Shown here in pieces: positions 31,603 through 38,805 of a stretch of 64,000 nt of DNA. Within the stretch, counting starts at the first letter, position 1, and each line of letters starts with the position of its first letter. The DNA lies in the NCBI RefSeq assembly GCF_000423505.1, contig NZ_AUIC01000005.1, positions 124,001 to 188,000 of the forward strand, read 5' to 3'. The stretch comes from Pseudoclavibacter soli DSM 23366. GTDB taxonomy: Bacteria; Actinomycetota; Actinomycetes; Actinomycetales; Microbacteriaceae. The notes below the pieces were generated by a model, which searched no databases, was not told the origin of the DNA, and was given only the letters and a program-made list of their open reading frames with translations. A program made the position numbers and the translations under genes.

Positions 31603-32562
31603 ATGACCGAGCAGCCGATGACACGCAGACAACTGCGTGCACTTCGCGACCAGCAGGTTCATGAAGCGACCTCTCGCATTTGCGCAGTTGCCCATCGTCC
31701 AGCTCGCGCACAGCAGCGTTCGACAACTCGTTCCTCGACCGCAGCCTCGCAAACTGCTCCTCGCAGGGCTGCCTCCATGCGGTCCACGCTGTTCCGTTCT
31801 CCCCAGGCCAAAGCAGTCACCGGTGTGCTCATCGCTTTCGGTTTAGGGTTCACGACAGCCGTTCCGGCCTATGCTGTTTCGCCATCCGTGTCGGCCACCG
31901 TAGATCTGAGCAGTGCAGATTACCAAGAGTTCGCAGACCGTGAAGCTGAACTTGTGGCCACGGGTGCACTTGAGCCCCAAGCGCTCACCGGCTCCTCTGG
32001 TTTGGTCTCGGCCACCGACGCGTCGTCGGTCGGGGCAGAGGCTCGCGCTGTGGCGCGGTTGACTTCTGGGCGTGCGTGCACACTCGACGAAAATGTCGTA
32101 CCCGAAGGCACTGACTATGTCATCCCGCTGCCAGCCGGCAGCTACACCGTCACATCCCGCCCAGGCGCGCGCTGGGGGCGTCAGCACAACGGTGTTGACA
32201 TGGCTGCGCCCTACGGCACCACGATTGTTGCTGCCATGTCGGGCACCGTGATCAGTGTCGGCCTGGTGAATGCCAACCCCACGGTGCAGGTTCGCACCTA
32301 TCTTTCAGATGGCACCCAGATCGACAGCTTCTATCTGCATGAGACGCTTGACTCTGTTCAGGTCAAAGAGGGCGATACTGTGCGCACCGGAGATGTGATC
32401 GCCGCGGTTGCTAGCGAGGGGCAGTCGACAGGTAATCACCTACATTTCGAGATGCGGCTCAACGGTGGCGATAGCGTCTATCCGGGTGTCGGCGGAGAGA
32501 CCATCGACGGGCTCAATTGGCTCAGCGCTCATGGTGCGTACGTCCTTCCAGGGTGTGCTTGA
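31603..32562 (+). CDS. Secreted M23 (LytM) family peptidase
   Basis: 319-residue predicted cell-wall endopeptidase. It has an unusually long basic N-terminus (70 residues, including MTRRQLRAL at 6-14) before a signal-type hydrophobic segment (71-87) and an AYA cleavage site near 89-91. The C-terminal LytM domain shows the zinc-binding HNGVD (HxxxD) near residue 198 and HLHFE (HxH) near 285, so it should be active. Alternative start at ATG 31618. First of three secreted wall hydrolases in 2.8 kb. Confidence 0.88.
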   Translation: MTEQPMTRRQLRALRDQQVHEATSRICAVAHRPARAQQRSTTRSSTAASQTAPRRAASMRSTLFRSPQAKAVTGVLIAFGLGFTTAVPAYAVSPSVSATVDLSSADYQEFADREAELVATGALEPQALTGSSGLVSATDASSVGAEARAVARLTSGRACTLDENVVPEGTDYVIPLPAGSYTVTSRPGARWGRQHNGVDMAAPYGTTIVAAMSGTVISVGLVNANPTVQVRTYLSDGTQIDSFYLHETLDSVQVKEGDTVRTGDVIAAVASEGQSTGNHLHFEMRLNGGDSVYPGVGGETIDGLNWLSAHGAYVLPGCA

Positions 32563-32617
32563 AGCCTCACATGTTGTTCTGAGGTAGTCGACTCAATGCG
32601 ATTCAGGCCATGTGCGC

Positions 32618-32623
32618 TATACT
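32618..32623 (+). promoter_or_regulatory. -10 element TATACT, leaderless start for the NlpC/P60 gene
   Basis: TATACT ends 6 nt before ATG 32630. This decides the start against an in-frame GTG at 32612, which would lie upstream of the promoter. Confidence 0.6.
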
Positions 32624-32629
32624 GAACAG

Positions 32630-33274
32630 ATGCTGAAGAGAACGCCTGCAGTGAAACTGTCCAGCACATTCGCCACCGTCTTGGTTTCGGGCGCTCTGGT
32701 TTTTGCCACTGCTGTGCCCTCTCAAGCTGCGGAGGTCGAGCAGGCCGTCCAGACCGGCTACAGCGCCCAAGAGCTTCACGCTGGTGCCAGCGCAGTCAAT
32801 GTGGCCGGCAGCGGCAGCGTCGGTGCTGAGACTCCGGTCGTTGAGGTTCCGGTGACAACCACCACGACGAGCAATTCTTCCTCTACTCGGGCAGCATCTT
32901 CGACAACAAGTAATGCAGCCATTGCTGTGGTTGATGGCACAGGCGCAGGGGCACAGGGCATCGTAGCCACCGGTCTTGCATATGTCGGTGTGCCTTATGT
33001 CTGGGGCGGTGCGTCGCCGTCCGGCTGGGACTGCTCAGGCTTTGTGCAGTGGGTCTACGCACAGAACGGCATCCAGTTGCCGCGCACATCAGGTGCTCAG
33101 GGGGCGGCGGGCACTCGCACCACCACACCAGTGCCCGGTGACCTTGTGGTTTATGGCAGCAGCCATATCGGCATCTACATTGGCAACGGCATGATGGTGC
33201 ATGCCTCCAAGCCTGGTGTGGGCACGGTTGTGGCTCCGGTCTACGGCACGCCGTATTACTCGCACATCGGCTGA
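32630..33274 (+). CDS. Secreted NlpC/P60 family peptidoglycan endopeptidase
   Basis: 214-residue secreted enzyme. Residues 1-33 form a normal signal peptide (SQA cleavage), 34-105 is a Ser/Thr/Val-rich linker, and 110-214 is an NlpC/P60 domain with catalytic C135 in WDCSGFVQW, the catalytic His in SHIGIYIGNG near 180 and the third polar residue in MVHASKPG near 193. The domain ends right at the C-terminus. Predicted to cut D-Glu-mDAP or equivalent bonds in peptidoglycan stems. Confidence 0.92.
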   Translation: MLKRTPAVKLSSTFATVLVSGALVFATAVPSQAAEVEQAVQTGYSAQELHAGASAVNVAGSGSVGAETPVVEVPVTTTTTSNSSSTRAASSTTSNAAIAVVDGTGAGAQGIVATGLAYVGVPYVWGGASPSGWDCSGFVQWVYAQNGIQLPRTSGAQGAAGTRTTTPVPGDLVVYGSSHIGIYIGNGMMVHASKPGVGTVVAPVYGTPYYSHIG

Positions 33275-33297
33275 GGCCTCTGAGAAGCCTCGCAGGT

Positions 33298-33373
33298 TGG
33301 TGCCACCGGCGAGAATCGAACTCGCGACGCACAGTTTAGGAAACTGTCGCTCTATCCACTGAGCTACGGCGGC
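33298..33373 (-). tRNA. tRNA-Arg (anticodon CCT)
   Basis: 76-nt cloverleaf with encoded CCA. The acceptor stem pairs GCCGCCG with CGGTGGC (one G-T), the anticodon arm is ACAGT-TTCCTAA-ACTGT with anticodon CCT reading AGG, and the T arm is GCGAGTTCGATTCTCGC. It lies between two cell-wall hydrolase genes. Confidence 0.95.
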
Positions 33374-33406
33374 TCACCAGCGATTAAGCCTACCAGCAGG
33401 TGCCAA

Positions 33407-34363
33407 TCAGATCTTGTGTTTGAAGATCAGGTCGCCGGAGGCAATGTACTGCTGTACTTCGGCAGCTGGAATGTACCGAGTGAAGTAACCGGACGAGGCT
33501 CCGTAGTTCTCCGTGAGGATACTGCCATCGATATAAGATTTGCCGACATAGGCCACGTGACCATAGGTGGTGCTGGAGTTGAACAGACCGGTCTTTGGGT
33601 AGACGATGATGTCGCCGGCCTGAGGCTCAGTGGTGGTCTCCCAGCCGACCAAGTTGCCGCTTCGAGCCCATTCGCCGCCGTTGCCGCCATTCGGCGTAAG
33701 CACAGCGTTTGTGTAAAGCCACGGTGAATGTGTGACCCCGGCGTCACGATTGATGCGCCACGCTACAAAGTCGGTGCAGTTGTTGACCACGTACCCGACA
33801 CCCAGGGCGCCGGGGTAATCGTCGCCGGTGGGCCGCTCTGTTGCAACCAGTGATTCGTCGGGCAGCTGCGTGGGGTTTGCCTGGCTGCTGCTCGGGCCGG
33901 CGATCGGCTGAATGGTCTCAGCTGTGAGAGCCTCGGGATGCTGATACAGATATTCGATCTGAGAGGCGGTCAGTGTTTGACGCTGGGCTCGAGCCGAGAT
34001 CAGCGCTGCAGTGCTGTCTGCATAAGAGGGAAGGCTGATGCCGAGCACGAGTGCACTGGTGAGCGTGAATGTGGAAGCAGTGGCGGCGATGCGCCGCGAC
34101 TTGCGCGAGGAATTTGGCCGTACTCCGCGGTGCTCGAAGACAGAGGTTCGGTCGACGGCGCTTGAGATCTTTAGAGAGGAGGCCTTGGAGCGGCGGGTGA
34201 CCCCGACAGGGAGAAGCGCCGAAGGTGGTGTGGCAGCACTGCCGCGGCGCTCAAGTGCGCGCAGCTCACGGCGGGTGAGAGGGTGTTGAAGATCGCTGTT
34301 CGGGGCAGTGGCCGTGGCGTTCAGCGCGTGCTTCGACAAAACTGGTACTCGCCCCTTCAACAC
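33407..34363 (-). CDS. Secreted CHAP-domain amidase/endopeptidase
   Basis: 318-residue predicted peptidoglycan hydrolase. A 90-residue basic N-terminus containing LTRRELRAL (residues 29-37) precedes a signal-type segment (93-112) with a SYAD cleavage region. The C-terminal CHAP domain (about 190-310) has the catalytic Cys in NNCTDFVAW and His in YGHVAYVGKS. The GTG start at 34363 has no good ribosome site. The TRR-x-LRAL motif is shared with the M23 protein at 31.6 kb, suggesting a common cytoplasmic targeting or handling feature. Confidence 0.85.
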   Translation of the reverse strand: MLKGRVPVLSKHALNATATAPNSDLQHPLTRRELRALERRGSAATPPSALLPVGVTRRSKASSLKISSAVDRTSVFEHRGVRPNSSRKSRRIAATASTFTLTSALVLGISLPSYADSTAALISARAQRQTLTASQIEYLYQHPEALTAETIQPIAGPSSSQANPTQLPDESLVATERPTGDDYPGALGVGYVVNNCTDFVAWRINRDAGVTHSPWLYTNAVLTPNGGNGGEWARSGNLVGWETTTEPQAGDIIVYPKTGLFNSSTTYGHVAYVGKSYIDGSILTENYGASSGYFTRYIPAAEVQQYIASGDLIFKHKI

Positions 34364-34538
34364 AGAGAAAACAGAAATCGTTCAACCAATCTTACCCGTC
34401 GATGACGTAGGCGTCACAGTGTGATGGAGAATGCACAGAAGCAGTAGCTGGTTGCGTGGCAATCGGCGAGGAATGCGAAGCCCACCGGGCGATCACGGGT
34501 AGTCTGGGCTGTGATCACTGAGGCAATTGGAGGTGCAG

Positions 34539-37500
34539 GTGACGGCACAGGACGGCGAGCGTGCGACGGCGTGGTCGCAGTGGCGCACCAGACTTGCTGC
34601 GGTCGGGGCATCGGCGCGCGCTCAACAGCCGGCGGTGCTCGAACTCAGCACCGGCCATCCCGGGGGCATCGCGCAACTGCTCTCTGGCAGAGTCACCCGT
34701 CTGTCGAACCTGATTCGCGACGAAAAAAACTACGTGCGTGCGGCTCGCATCGCCCGTCAGATCGAGCACAAGGCCGCAGAGCTCTCGCAAGATCGTGGCC
34801 TTGATGCCGTTCAGCTGCTCGCTGGCGAGATGCTCTGGCATGACGGTGCTCGTTCACAACGACTTCCCGTCATCTTGCAGCCGGCGATCATCCAAGGCGT
34901 TCCCGGCGATTTCGAGCTCAAGATCACTTCGGTGCCGGTCATCAACCCCGAAGTCGTGCGGCAGCTGAGTCGGCGCTTCAACGCCGACATCGACGTGGCC
35001 GGCCTGCAAGAGCTGGCGCACAGCACCGACGGGTTTCACCCCGATGAGGCGCTGCGCCGCCTGAGTCAGGAGTTTCGACTCGTCGAAGGTCTCGAATTCG
35101 CCCGTGCGCTGAGACTCGGCATGTTCAGCAGTGCACCTCAAGAGCTGTCTGCACGCGCGGTCGACCGCATCCACCCGCTGCTCGATGCGGTCATCGACGT
35201 GCCCGGCGCGCGCTCGGCTTTGGCCGAGAACGTGCGACTCGTCACGGTCAACAGCGCCGATGAACGCAGCGCGCTGAGTGATGCGCTCATTCTCGACGCC
35301 AGTGCAGAGCAAGAGAATATTGTGGCTCAGGCCAGCACCGGCACCTCGTTTGTGGTGCGCAGCGTGCCCGGCGCCGGCGTGGTGCAGGCAGTCGCCAATA
35401 TTGTCGCCACACTGGTGCCGATGGGGCGACGCATTGCCATCGTGGCGCCGTCGCGCGCATCGCTGGATGCCGTGGCCGACAAATTGCGCAGTCGCGGCTT
35501 GGGCGGGTTGGCCGTCTCACCAGCCTCACTGCGCCGTGACCTGATCAGCGCCATCAATCGCAACGAGCACGCTCAGCCAGTCACTGACCGCGAGCAGCGT
35601 GCCGCTGGCTACGCCCGGCTGCGTGATGCACTGTTGGGCTACCGGCGCAGTCTGCAGGCAGTGCACCCCTCATACGGCGTCTCGGTATCGCAGGCGCTCA
35701 GTGAGCTCGCACGCCTGTCGCTGCTGCCAGACGCTCCGCAGACTCGTGTGCGACTGCACTCCAGTGTGCTCGAGGCCTTAGCCATCGATCGTTCCTCCGC
35801 GGCCAACCTGCTGCGACAGGCTGCCGATCTCGGCCAGTTCGACTTCGGCCCCGAAGACTCGCCGTGGTACGGGGCAACGTTTCACTCGCCGCAAGATGCC
35901 GAAAACATGTATCTGCTGGCCAAGCGTCTGTCTGAGACCGATCTGCGCACGATGGTCAGAAAAGTCTGGGCCGTCTTCGACGAGGCTGGTCTGCGCGAAC
36001 CTCAGACACTGACCGAGATCAACGAGGGGCTGCAGCTGCTGCTCAGTGTGCGAGACACCCTCGACCGCTTCCACCCGGTGGTGTATGACCGTTCTCTTGA
36101 AGAGCTCATCGCGGCGACCGCGCCGCGGCGTGACCAAGAGATGGCTTCTGGTGCTCGGCGACGTCTGCGGCAGCTGGCCAAAGAATACCTGCGCCCCGGT
36201 GCTCACGTCTCCGATGTGCATGTCGCGCTGCAGCAGATTCAGCGGGATCGCCAGCTGTGGCAGCGCCTGGCGCGCTCGCACCAGCCGCCGTCGGTGCCGA
36301 CGGGGCTGGGCGATGCGAACATCGTGTTCACTGCCGTGGCGGCCGACCTGAAAGTGCTTGCTCTGCCGCTTGACTCTGCACAGGCCGGCGATGTCAACAC
36401 CCAGTCGCTCGACCAGCTGCAGACGCTGCTCGATCAGCTCACCCGAGATGTCAGTGCGCTCGGGCATCTGCATGAGCGCGCCGAACTGCTGGCTGCGCTC
36501 GAGCGCATGGGGCTGGCCGAACTCGTCGAGGACTTCTCACGTCGTCACGTCACCGCTGAGCGTGCCGGTGATGAACTCGAACTCGCCTGGTGGCAGTCGG
36601 TGCTCGAACTGCTGCTCGAGCGCGACGGATCGCTCCTTAACGCCAACACACAGGTGCTCGCCCGGCTCGAGCGCGACTTCGTGCTCGAAGACCGCCGCAT
36701 TCTCGAAGACCATGCACGTGAACTCGCGGCCACGCTTGCCCAGCGCTGGACCGATGCCGTCGATGTGTACCCGAACGAGGCGAAGGTGCTGCGCGAGCAG
36801 CTGCTCGACGGCACCATTTCGGCCGAGACGCTGATTCAGCACCTGCCGCACGTTGGCCGAGCGGTCGCTCCTGTGTGGCTGTTCTCGCCCTATCAGTACG
36901 GCGGCGAGGTGCCTGAGCGAGCGCACTTCGACACAGTCATTCTGCTTGATGCGGCGAGCATCACCCTGACCGAGGCCGTGTTGCCCATCGCGCAGGCAGA
37001 ACAGGTGATCGCCATCGGCGACCCAGTGCTCGGAGCGCCCACCGGGTTCAGCATCGACGCCGCCGACGCCAGCCTGCGGCCGGTGGTCGATGAACCTTCT
37101 GCGTTCCGTGCCCTGGCCGACTTGTTGCCGCAGTTGCGTCTCGACTTCAGCTACCAGCCGGGCGGGCGCGCGCTTGCCGCGCTGGTGAACCGACGCTGGT
37201 ACGACCAGGCCATCCATTCACTGCCCTCAGCTGCCGAGTTCGTTGGTGAACCTGCGCTGACCACCATCGATCTTGAGGTGCACGGGCGCCAACAGCCCAA
37301 CCCCGACAGTGGCACGGTCGAGGCTATGCCGGCCGAGGTGACGCGCGTGGTCGAACTCGTGATCGCTCACGCTGTGTGGCGCCCCGATGAGTCACTGATG
37401 GTAGTCTCGGCGAGTGCGCTCACGGCTCACCGCATTCGGGCAGCCGTGCGCGCCGAGGTGCTGAAGCATCCTCAAGTCGCCGAATTCTTCGACACGCGAC

Positions 37501-38159
37501 GGCATGACCCGTTCGTGGTGCTCACCATCGCCCAGGCAGCCACTCGGCGTCGCGATCGGGTGATCTTCTCGCTTGGGTATGGCCGCACTCCGCATGGGCG
37601 GCTGCTCAGCGAATTCGGCCCCATTCGCGCCGATGACACCGGATGGCGTTGGCTCGGCATTGCCCTGACCCGCGCTCGGCGACACCTCACCGTGGTCGCA
37701 GCACTCGGTGCCCGTGACGAAGAGGTACGTCGGCTCGAGGGCGCTCCCCGTGCGCTGCTCGATCTGCTCGGTGGAGCACGTGAGCCCGAACCGGAGCGCA
37801 CCTACTTCTCGGCGCAGGCGCTGCTGGTCGATCTTGGTCGGCGCCTGCAGCGCAAGGGGCTCACCGTCGACGACCACTTCGACGACCAACTGGGGCTCAC
37901 CGTCACCGATGGCATCACCAAGATGGTCATCGAAACCGACGCCGACTACAGCCGTGACACACTGCGCGAGTCGCTTCGCCTGCATCCGTCGCTGCTGACG
38001 CGTATGGGCTGGCGCTTCCGCCGCGTGTACTCGTTCGAGTTGTTCGCCAATCCGCAGCACATCGCCGACGAGATTCAGGCTGAGTTTCAGCAGCTGGCGC
38101 GGCAGCACGAGCAGATTGAGCAGCAGCGACGCGAGACCGCGGCCGAACAGGGGCAGTGA
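34539..38159 (+). CDS. Large degenerate SF1-helicase-like protein with nuclease-like C-terminal domain
   Basis: 1206-residue protein resembling UPF1/DNA2-like SF1 helicases. The P-loop region (residues 275-283) reads SVPGAGVVQ, without the Walker A Lys-Ser/Thr. The Walker B region (about 797-810) reads TVILLDAASIT instead of DEASQ, and the motif III equivalent is IGDPVLGAPTGF. Motif VI is well kept (ALTRARRHL, near 1040). The last 110 residues (about 1090-1200) look like a Vsr/MTES_1575-type nuclease fold, ending in the FRRVYSFELFANPQ segment. GTG 34539 is chosen because GGAGG lies 5 nt upstream. It is probably not a conventional ATPase. A 68-residue gene is coupled downstream. Confidence 0.75.
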   Translation: MTAQDGERATAWSQWRTRLAAVGASARAQQPAVLELSTGHPGGIAQLLSGRVTRLSNLIRDEKNYVRAARIARQIEHKAAELSQDRGLDAVQLLAGEMLWHDGARSQRLPVILQPAIIQGVPGDFELKITSVPVINPEVVRQLSRRFNADIDVAGLQELAHSTDGFHPDEALRRLSQEFRLVEGLEFARALRLGMFSSAPQELSARAVDRIHPLLDAVIDVPGARSALAENVRLVTVNSADERSALSDALILDASAEQENIVAQASTGTSFVVRSVPGAGVVQAVANIVATLVPMGRRIAIVAPSRASLDAVADKLRSRGLGGLAVSPASLRRDLISAINRNEHAQPVTDREQRAAGYARLRDALLGYRRSLQAVHPSYGVSVSQALSELARLSLLPDAPQTRVRLHSSVLEALAIDRSSAANLLRQAADLGQFDFGPEDSPWYGATFHSPQDAENMYLLAKRLSETDLRTMVRKVWAVFDEAGLREPQTLTEINEGLQLLLSVRDTLDRFHPVVYDRSLEELIAATAPRRDQEMASGARRRLRQLAKEYLRPGAHVSDVHVALQQIQRDRQLWQRLARSHQPPSVPTGLGDANIVFTAVAADLKVLALPLDSAQAGDVNTQSLDQLQTLLDQLTRDVSALGHLHERAELLAALERMGLAELVEDFSRRHVTAERAGDELELAWWQSVLELLLERDGSLLNANTQVLARLERDFVLEDRRILEDHARELAATLAQRWTDAVDVYPNEAKVLREQLLDGTISAETLIQHLPHVGRAVAPVWLFSPYQYGGEVPERAHFDTVILLDAASITLTEAVLPIAQAEQVIAIGDPVLGAPTGFSIDAADASLRPVVDEPSAFRALADLLPQLRLDFSYQPGGRALAALVNRRWYDQAIHSLPSAAEFVGEPALTTIDLEVHGRQQPNPDSGTVEAMPAEVTRVVELVIAHAVWRPDESLMVVSASALTAHRIRAAVRAEVLKHPQVAEFFDTRRHDPFVVLTIAQAATRRRDRVIFSLGYGRTPHGRLLSEFGPIRADDTGWRWLGIALTRARRHLTVVAALGARDEEVRRLEGAPRALLDLLGGAREPEPERTYFSAQALLVDLGRRLQRKGLTVDDHFDDQLGLTVTDGITKMVIETDADYSRDTLRESLRLHPSLLTRMGWRFRRVYSFELFANPQHIADEIQAEFQQLARQHEQIEQQRRETAAEQGQ

Positions 38160-38365
38160 TGACTGGTGACCAGCCTCAGGTTCGCCGGCTCGGCCCGCGC
38201 CGGGTGGTCTATGGCGAGTTGCCGAACCCCGAACAGGCGGTGGTGCGTGACGAGACGCTCGCGGCTGCGGCCGACGGTGAACGGGCTGAGAGCTGGGGCG
38301 ATGCTTCGCCCGAACATGAAGAAGACCGCTGGCTCAAAGCACAGCGGCCTCCTCATTGGGGCTGA
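38159..38365 (+). CDS. Small hypothetical protein coupled to the helicase-like gene
   Basis: 68-residue, charged, probably disordered protein (VRRLGPRRVVYGELPNPEQ near residues 7-25; DRWLKAQRPPHWG at the end). Its ATG shares a base with the TGA stop of the helicase-like gene (TGATG), so translation should be coupled. No domain is recognised. The gene order suggests a partner or regulator of the large protein. It ends 11 nt before the convergent mscL. Confidence 0.7.
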   Translation: MTGDQPQVRRLGPRRVVYGELPNPEQAVVRDETLAAAADGERAESWGDASPEHEEDRWLKAQRPPHWG

Positions 38366-38376
38366 GACGCCTCAAC

Positions 38377-38805
38377 TCATGCGCGGGGTGCGCCTGACCC
38401 ACCCTGCTGCGCGGCGAGGGCTGCCTGGATCTCTTTGAGCACGTCGAGCTCGGTGCGGGTGTCGCCGGGCTCTTCAGCGACCGCCTTCTTGTGCTTTTCT
38501 TGGAACTCACGCAGTTTGTTGAACGGCAGCACGATCACGAAGTAGAGCGCTGCAGCCACCAGCAGGAAGTTCACGACGGCGGTGATGACCGCGCCGAGCG
38601 AGAAATCGGCACCGTTGATGGTGAAGTTGCCGACGGAGTCGAAATTGGGCTGACCGAAGATGGCGGCGATCAGCGGCATGATCAGTTTCTCGACCAGGGC
38701 GGTGATCAGAGCGGTGAATGCAGTGCCGATGACGACGCCGACGGCGAGGTCAATGGCGTTGCCTTTAGAGATGAAGTCGCGGAAGCCGGCGAAGACCTGT
38801 TTCAT
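38377..38805 (-). CDS. mscL: Large-conductance mechanosensitive channel
   Basis: Osmotic safety valve of the inner membrane. The 142-residue product begins with FRDFISKGNAIDLAVGVVIGTAF (the N-terminal amphipathic helix and pore helix TM1), has a second membrane segment near residues 72-97, and a charged C-terminal bundle helix. Length is normal. ATG 38805 follows AGGAG. Transcribed in the same direction as the 5-FCL gene upstream, with 130 nt between. Confidence 0.95.
   Translation of the reverse strand: MKQVFAGFRDFISKGNAIDLAVGVVIGTAFTALITALVEKLIMPLIAAIFGQPNFDSVGNFTINGADFSLGAVITAVVNFLLVAAALYFVIVLPFNKLREFQEKHKKAVAEEPGDTRTELDVLKEIQAALAAQQGGSGAPRA

Follow-up and report, generated by a model that had tools for sequence, protein, structure and literature searches.

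How is a helicase-like protein that lacks the P-loop lysine maintained, and what might it do? The question is raised by a 64,000-nucleotide (nt) stretch of the 2.2 Mb genome of Pseudoclavibacter soli DSM 23366, hereafter the window, which encodes a 1206-residue protein (HEL) and, overlapping its end, a 68-residue partner (the PPHW protein). HEL is encoded by 1206 codons from a GTG start at 34539 to a stop at 38157–38159, and that stop is overlapped by the ATG of the partner gene (TGATG), which ends at 38365. An earlier sequence-only reading of this DNA had described a full-length frame without frameshift, a Walker A sequence without lysine (SVPGAGVVQ) and a preserved motif VI, all of which we confirm; it had also suggested an undescribed system that functions without normal ATP hydrolysis. 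The reading that we favour, at somewhat better than even confidence, is that HEL belongs to the core genome, is inherited vertically and is a pseudo-enzyme that would have turned into a nucleic-acid-binding scaffold, having descended from an active helicase–nuclease related to Hhe, ProA and PDC-S37.

Loss and retention of catalytic residues

Residues were counted over 131 unique sequences of the window's family, after 8 family rows and one other had been dropped from 184 rows; the family alignment had been enlarged with stretches of 20 further genomes, several of which repeated named loci. Where the Walker A consensus is GxGK(S/T), HEL of the window reads GAGVV, and Lys occurs at this position in none of the 131 sequences (Gly in 103, Val in 10, Ala and Leu in 5 each, Ser in 4, Tyr in 2, Arg and Ile in 1 each), nor in the first 105 unique homologues drawn from the family and its near relatives. 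The earlier view that the loss is not that of one decaying copy is thereby borne out. Both acids of Walker B have also changed: neither the Asp (0/130) nor the Glu (0/130) stands at its usual position in the family, the former position being Val, Leu, Ala or Ile and the latter Asp in 129 sequences. The register was read without gaps from the shared FD that precedes the strand (FDTVILLDAAS in the window, FDVVVFDEASQ in the intact orthologue L128 and FDVVVVMDAHQ in the intermediate L137). It sharpens the earlier description of LLDAAS in place of DEAS, placing a hydrophobic residue at the Walker B Asp and Asp804 at the catalytic Glu, such that both acids are altered. In the C-terminal domain, we take the Asp of IDLAV and the ExDG motif to be catalytic. 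This Asp is present in 1 of 130 family sequences and absent from the window copy, the Glu position holds Glu in 110, Asp in 19 and Gln in 1 of 130, and the Gly of ExDG occurs in 6 of 131 sequences, with a gap in 121.

The remaining helicase sites, for which we assume the motif names Q, III, V and VI, are conserved in 97–100% of family sequences, as is the P-loop glycine: Q258 and G278 in 131/131, G280 in 130/131, D828 and D1006 in 130/130, R873 in 129/130, R1045 in 127/130 and R1047 in 130/130. Motif VI of the window copy is intact (ALTRARRHL). At residue 873 (37155–37157) the window copy alone carries Gln rather than Arg. In column conservation, the Lys position ranks at the 52nd percentile and Asp804 at the 90th; the neighbours of the Lys (G278, G280 and Q283) span the 94th to the 98th, with both G278 and Q283 at the upper end. 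The pattern is one of selective loss of the hydrolysis residues and not of drift across the site as a whole. Catalytic residues have thus disappeared across a conserved clade under selection, as is expected of a pseudohelicase, and in the window's family HEL would be a pseudo-helicase/pseudo-nuclease from which the residues for ATP hydrolysis and a catalytic nuclease residue have been lost. The proposal of a function without normal ATP hydrolysis is well grounded.

Fold and known relatives

The closest named relatives of HEL, at 68% identity, are from Pseudoclavibacter sp. CFCC 11306, P. sp. 13-3 and P. caeni. An AlphaFold model (1186 residues, 35 aligned sequences) had a predicted local distance difference test (pLDDT) score of 86.9 and a predicted template modelling score of 0.75. 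Because this model resembles UPF1, Ighmbp2, Dna2, SETX and the spliceosomal helicase Aquarius, HEL is predicted to adopt the UPF1-like fold of superfamily (SF) 1B helicases, with a long helical insertion; the UPF1-like motif order described before agrees with this. Structure comparison, which covered the helicase part and barely probed the C-terminal nuclease-like domain, returned UPF1, Ighmbp2, Dna2 and SETX at Z 17–21 (for Ighmbp2, Z 20.7 and a root-mean-square deviation of 4.5 over 499 residues). These four proteins have the fold and the conserved motifs Q, III, V and VI in common with HEL, which differs from them in lacking the P-loop Lys and a standard Walker B, and in possessing the large helical insertion and the C-terminal nuclease-like domain. 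By sequence, solved structures gave short matches only, around the P-loop (SMUBP-2, NAM7, UPF1).

In Pfam, MTES_1575 matched residues 1102–1181 of HEL at E 3.7e-4, with 20.9 bits against a cut-off of 38.2, and three weaker matches all had E > 0.1; DUF4011 was not matched in the window copy. The Vsr/MTES_1575-type domain proposed earlier for the C-terminus is thus supported by this match and by alignment, with the qualifications that the score lies below the cut-off and that a catalytic residue is lost. Searches of NCBIfam and PADLOC profiles identified ProA (8e-72), PDC-S37 (9e-77) and Hhe (5e-42), most strongly over the second half of HEL, and homology to all three is, judged from these scores, far beyond chance. 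The scores nevertheless fall below the curated NCBIfam equivalog cut-offs (ProA, 242 versus 1500 bits; Hhe, 143 versus 2000 bits). ProA, PDC-S37 and Hhe, which are known or candidate anti-phage proteins, share with HEL the order DUF4011, SF1 helicase and Vsr nuclease. They differ in size (1550–1911 residues in their models versus ~1200 in HEL), and HEL differs further in its missing catalytic residues and its place as a core chromosomal gene. Giant DUF4011-SF1-MTES_1575 helicase–nucleases are put forward as defence proteins in the consulted portion of PMC3710099, where an SF1 helicase is followed by an MTES_1575-type nuclease domain, an order common to HEL. Unlike the proteins in that portion, HEL has no Pfam match to HEPN, transglutaminase or winged helix-turn-helix domains, and its nuclease and ATPase sites are degenerate. 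By descent, the homology indicates, HEL is a DUF4011-SF1-MTES_1575 helicase–nuclease. Our search of open-licence literature on helicases, pseudoenzymes and PPHW found nothing on HEL.

Intact orthologues and ancestry

Outside the family, six HEL-type rows carry an intact GPPGTGKSQT together with FDEASQ, and the 10 long outgroup proteins all share these sequences, apart from one T to A change; the P-loop loss claimed earlier is therefore family-wide and does not extend to these rows. The four intact copies tested (L128, L130, L141 and L145) all pass the Pfam cut-offs for DUF4011, AAA_11, AAA_12 and MTES_1575 (74–122 bits for MTES_1575). As in the window, mscL lies within ~0.5 kb of four of the six intact copies (L128–L131, seen in L165–L168), whereas none of the genes that flank HEL in the window lies beside the other two (L169 and L170). 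Given these intact orthologues in other families, the ancestor of HEL was probably an active enzyme that combined DUF4011, an SF1B helicase and a Vsr-type nuclease, and the window's family is, on alignment, a derived and inactivated branch of this known architecture.

In a tree rooted on two long proteins, rows without the Lys were placed among rows that retain it. The best trees require two changes for loss of the P-loop Lys, and a single Lys-less clade appeared in 0% of 200 bootstrap trees; the approximately unbiased test leaves such a clade unrejected (p 0.249). The replacing residue differs by clade: mostly Gly in the window's family, Gln in 6/8 Micrococcaceae-like rows and Arg in 10/11 rows of the family labelled f38. 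The Micrococcaceae-like rows (L090, L097, L102, L107, L108, L109, L125 and L126) lack the P-loop Lys and keep the nuclease Asp in 8/8 but the Glu in only 4/8; the helicase and nuclease sites thus did not decay simultaneously. Five further rows outside the family (L147, L148, L149, L179 and L180) have a largely eroded P-loop, and some of them largely eroded further helicase motifs as well, in frames of >1,200 residues. The orthologues of HEL thus form a natural gradation between intact and dead helicase–nucleases, in which the passage from enzyme to scaffold could be studied.

Distribution and selection

A profile search of 299 sampled family genomes (E 1e-50 or better) identified HEL in 296 of them, in 265/267 of those of good quality and in 85/85 genera. 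Among the positive genomes are some that measure no more than 0.9 to 1.5 Mb. Within the family and its order, a match was found in 59/59 genomes, the window's included, some of the matches outside the family being weak or in pieces; in the class sample, 64 of 296 genomes were matched at E 1e-30 or better. Internal stops were flagged in three genomes: in G030 and G038 the stop is the gene's own end, and G042 belongs to another family. For close pairs, the ratio of nonsynonymous to synonymous substitution rates (dN/dS, by simple count) was 0.02–0.06 in 8/9 and 0.20 in the ninth. It was 0.055 for L031/L032, from the window's genus, and 0.20–0.28 for three more distant pairs of the genus (dS 0.8–1.05). 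HEL is under purifying selection, and the earlier statement that the gene is maintained is upheld. Among 80 named loci, HEL lies near mscL in 65, a galU-like NTP_transferase gene in 70 and the window's acetyltransferase gene in 72. Phage and plasmid collections contained 1 and 99 matching records, respectively; no listed record reached 30% identity, and at least 80% of HEL was covered by a single one of the 99. No link to a defence island was seen in this analysis. HEL is, as this distribution indicates, a core gene that is vertically inherited and mostly fixed in location. Its near-universal retention, which extends to a genome of 0.9 Mb, suggests that it serves a core function in Actinobacteria that has yet to be recognised.

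The PPHW protein

Besides a basic stretch, relatives of the PPHW protein have two motifs in common, EDxDxxWG and, at the C-terminus, NDxRLxxDxPPHW; in L232–L251 and the window, the motifs read TxDDTDxGWGE and NDDRLLxERPPHW. Its composition suggests that the protein is probably disordered. Neither it nor two class-level relatives had a significant match in Pfam or NCBIfam, the one Pfam hit (E 0.18) being at chance level. Two of the 80 named loci run off their contig, and in all 78 that could be evaluated the PPHW gene adjoins HEL: downstream in 67 (its stop 188–425 nt past that of HEL), fused in frame in 4, of which L084 is doubtful for its long linker, and convergent in 7 (10–785 nt between stops). 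The convergent cases are all from Subtercola (L035, L036, L039, L046, L069, L085 and L091), where the partner gene is inverted yet still directly behind HEL. Additional fusions were found in L125, L162, L164, L167 (which has an intact P-loop) and L180, and in the tree the fused rows are spread over four or more branches. In a scan of 22 further loci no partner was detected in 6, one of which (L179) was missed because its tail runs past the motif.

Across the class the partner is the more widespread of the two. Among 197 class genomes, 90, or about half, contain a PPHW match (E 0.01 or better), one each; HEL is strongly matched in 31 of these 90, weakly matched in 4 and not matched at E 1e-30 in 55. 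This wider occurrence implies a role for the PPHW protein that is independent of HEL, which may be its client. The translational coupling noted earlier thus holds, together with conserved adjacency, and specificity for HEL does not. In genomes without HEL, 9/20 partner contexts share a gene that we take to be FmdB-like, the others differ, and some lie near mscL. The window's genome has 21 DNA matches to PPHW, with the full motif only in the gene beside HEL. About half of the sampled class genomes thus encode this small protein, which has strict linear motifs and no annotation.

Proposed function and alternatives

The retained pocket and motifs without the hydrolysis residues, the degenerate nuclease and the near-universal retention together argue for binding without catalysis. 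HEL would keep its fold for nucleic-acid binding and may bind nucleotide as a non-hydrolysed ligand or switch, its shape perhaps depending on the nucleotide; it could thereby act as a scaffold or sensor that holds DNA, RNA or other proteins. The PPHW protein might be a disordered adaptor that tethers HEL, through its own short motifs, to a third partner. Such a change from enzyme to binder can be likened to that of the Deinococcus radiodurans PriA pseudohelicase, which, in the consulted portion of PMC4504706, has lost ATPase and unwinding activity and kept DNA binding and protein contact. Like HEL, that PriA is a conserved bacterial helicase with lost catalysis; it is not the same helicase, and a part in reloading the replisome has been proposed for it (PMC4504706, same portion). 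HEL has, in addition, lost a nuclease site. A more specific version is conceivable although doubtful: a defence-type helicase–nuclease would have been domesticated in Actinobacteria, both activities being lost stepwise, and would now be a required scaffold that works with the PPHW adaptor in transcription, replication or repair. Several observations weigh against the scaffold reading. HEL was not matched in 3 of the 299 family genomes, mscL is missing as a neighbour in 15 of the 80 named loci (some on short contigs), and the PPHW protein occurs in the 55 genomes without detectable HEL. In a model of the fused Arthrobacter copy L090, the partner tail was disordered (pLDDT <50), with few tailed sequences in the alignment. 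Asp804, an acid kept at the catalytic Glu site (129/130), may permit weak or unusual hydrolysis, the Glu or Asp kept at the nuclease Glu position (110 and 19 of 130) may leave a one-acid nuclease site, and it is the modelled fold that suggests nucleic-acid binding by HEL.

Could HEL still be an anti-phage protein, a non-hydrolysing helicase that senses phage nucleic acid and signals through its partner? Among described proteins, it is most closely related to the defence proteins ProA and Hhe and the candidate PDC-S37, which are mobile and patchily distributed in defence islands. Inactive domains are also known in defence proteins, AbpA having a catalytically inactive HamA-like domain in the consulted portion of PMC12278908. 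The presence of HEL in 296/299 genomes, mostly at a fixed locus with mscL nearby in 65/80, and its low dN/dS in close pairs are unlike genes of the mobile, patchy kind. Phage and plasmid records contain no close copies among those listed, and the scores are far under the curated cut-offs. Because HEL lacks the catalytic residues, falls below the ProA and Hhe cut-offs and is core rather than mobile, we do not class it as a defence protein, and consider an anti-phage role rather unlikely. Less likely again is that HEL remains active through a rearranged ATPase site, in which Asp804 and other residues replace the standard Lys and acids. The strong conservation of G278, Q283 and Asp804 would suit such a site, whereas the variability of the Lys position, the non-standard residues at both Walker B positions and the frames of >1,200 residues kept outside the family despite a largely eroded P-loop (L147–L149, L179 and L180) speak against it.

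A further possibility, compatible with the other readings and to be held only tentatively, is that HEL and the PPHW protein are neighbours by inheritance alone, the partner acting in another process and HEL by itself. The PPHW genomes without HEL (55/90, and 4 more with only a weak HEL-like match), the occasional location of such partners near mscL or the presumed FmdB-like gene, and its possible placement 4.4 kb from HEL in the f38 family are consistent with independence. Adjacency in every testable named locus, even after inversion in Subtercola, the in-frame fusions in several branches and the overlap in the window argue for a connection. That the gene is a decaying relic is highly improbable: catalytic residues are lost and R873 has become Gln in the window copy only, but the frames are long and open, dN/dS is 0.055 for L031/L032 of the window's genus and the gene persists in genomes of 0.9–1.5 Mb. 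Decay of this single copy was ruled out by the low dN/dS, the near-universal presence and the family-wide loss of the P-loop Lys.

Layout of the locus

Features of HEL, its partner and the flanking mscL gene in the window.
Feature	Position	Strand	Basis or comparison
GGAGG, ribosome-binding-site-like, 5 nt before the GTG start	34529..34533	+	Read from sequence
HEL, predicted 1206-residue pseudo-helicase/pseudo-nuclease	34539..38159	+	Open reading frame; homologues in 296/299 sampled family genomes
DUF4011-like N-terminal region, ~residues 30–190	34626..35108	+	Boundaries inferred from intact orthologues
Q-motif Gln258	35310..35312	+	131/131 unique family sequences
Degenerate Walker A/P-loop SVPGAGVVQ	35361..35387	+	Commonest in family TLPGTGGTQ; intact orthologues GPPGTGKSQ
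Degenerate Walker B ILLDAAS	36939..36959	+	Intact orthologues VVFDEAS or VIFDEAS
Motif III AIGDPVLGAP, GD conserved	37011..37040	+	Alignment
Motif VI LGIALTRARRHL	37653..37688	+	Alignment
MTES_1575/Vsr-type nuclease-like domain, active site degenerate	37842..38081	+	Pfam E 3.7e-4, below cut-off; alignment with intact orthologues
PPHW protein, 68 residues, two short motifs	38159..38365	+	Open reading frame
WGD of the upstream short motif (consensus AxEDxDxxWG)	38294..38302	+	Comparison of relatives
C-terminal PPHWG motif (consensus NDxRLxxDxPPHW)	38348..38362	+	Comparison of relatives
mscL, usual flanking gene, outside the proposed system	38377..38805	-	Pfam MscL 5.6e-32; near the gene in 65/80 named loci

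Upstream of HEL, positions 31603–34363 of the window hold three consecutive genes of cell-wall hydrolase type, M23, NlpC/P60 and CHAP, the CHAP gene being on the other strand; they lie near HEL in 3, 8 and 2 of the 80 named loci, respectively.

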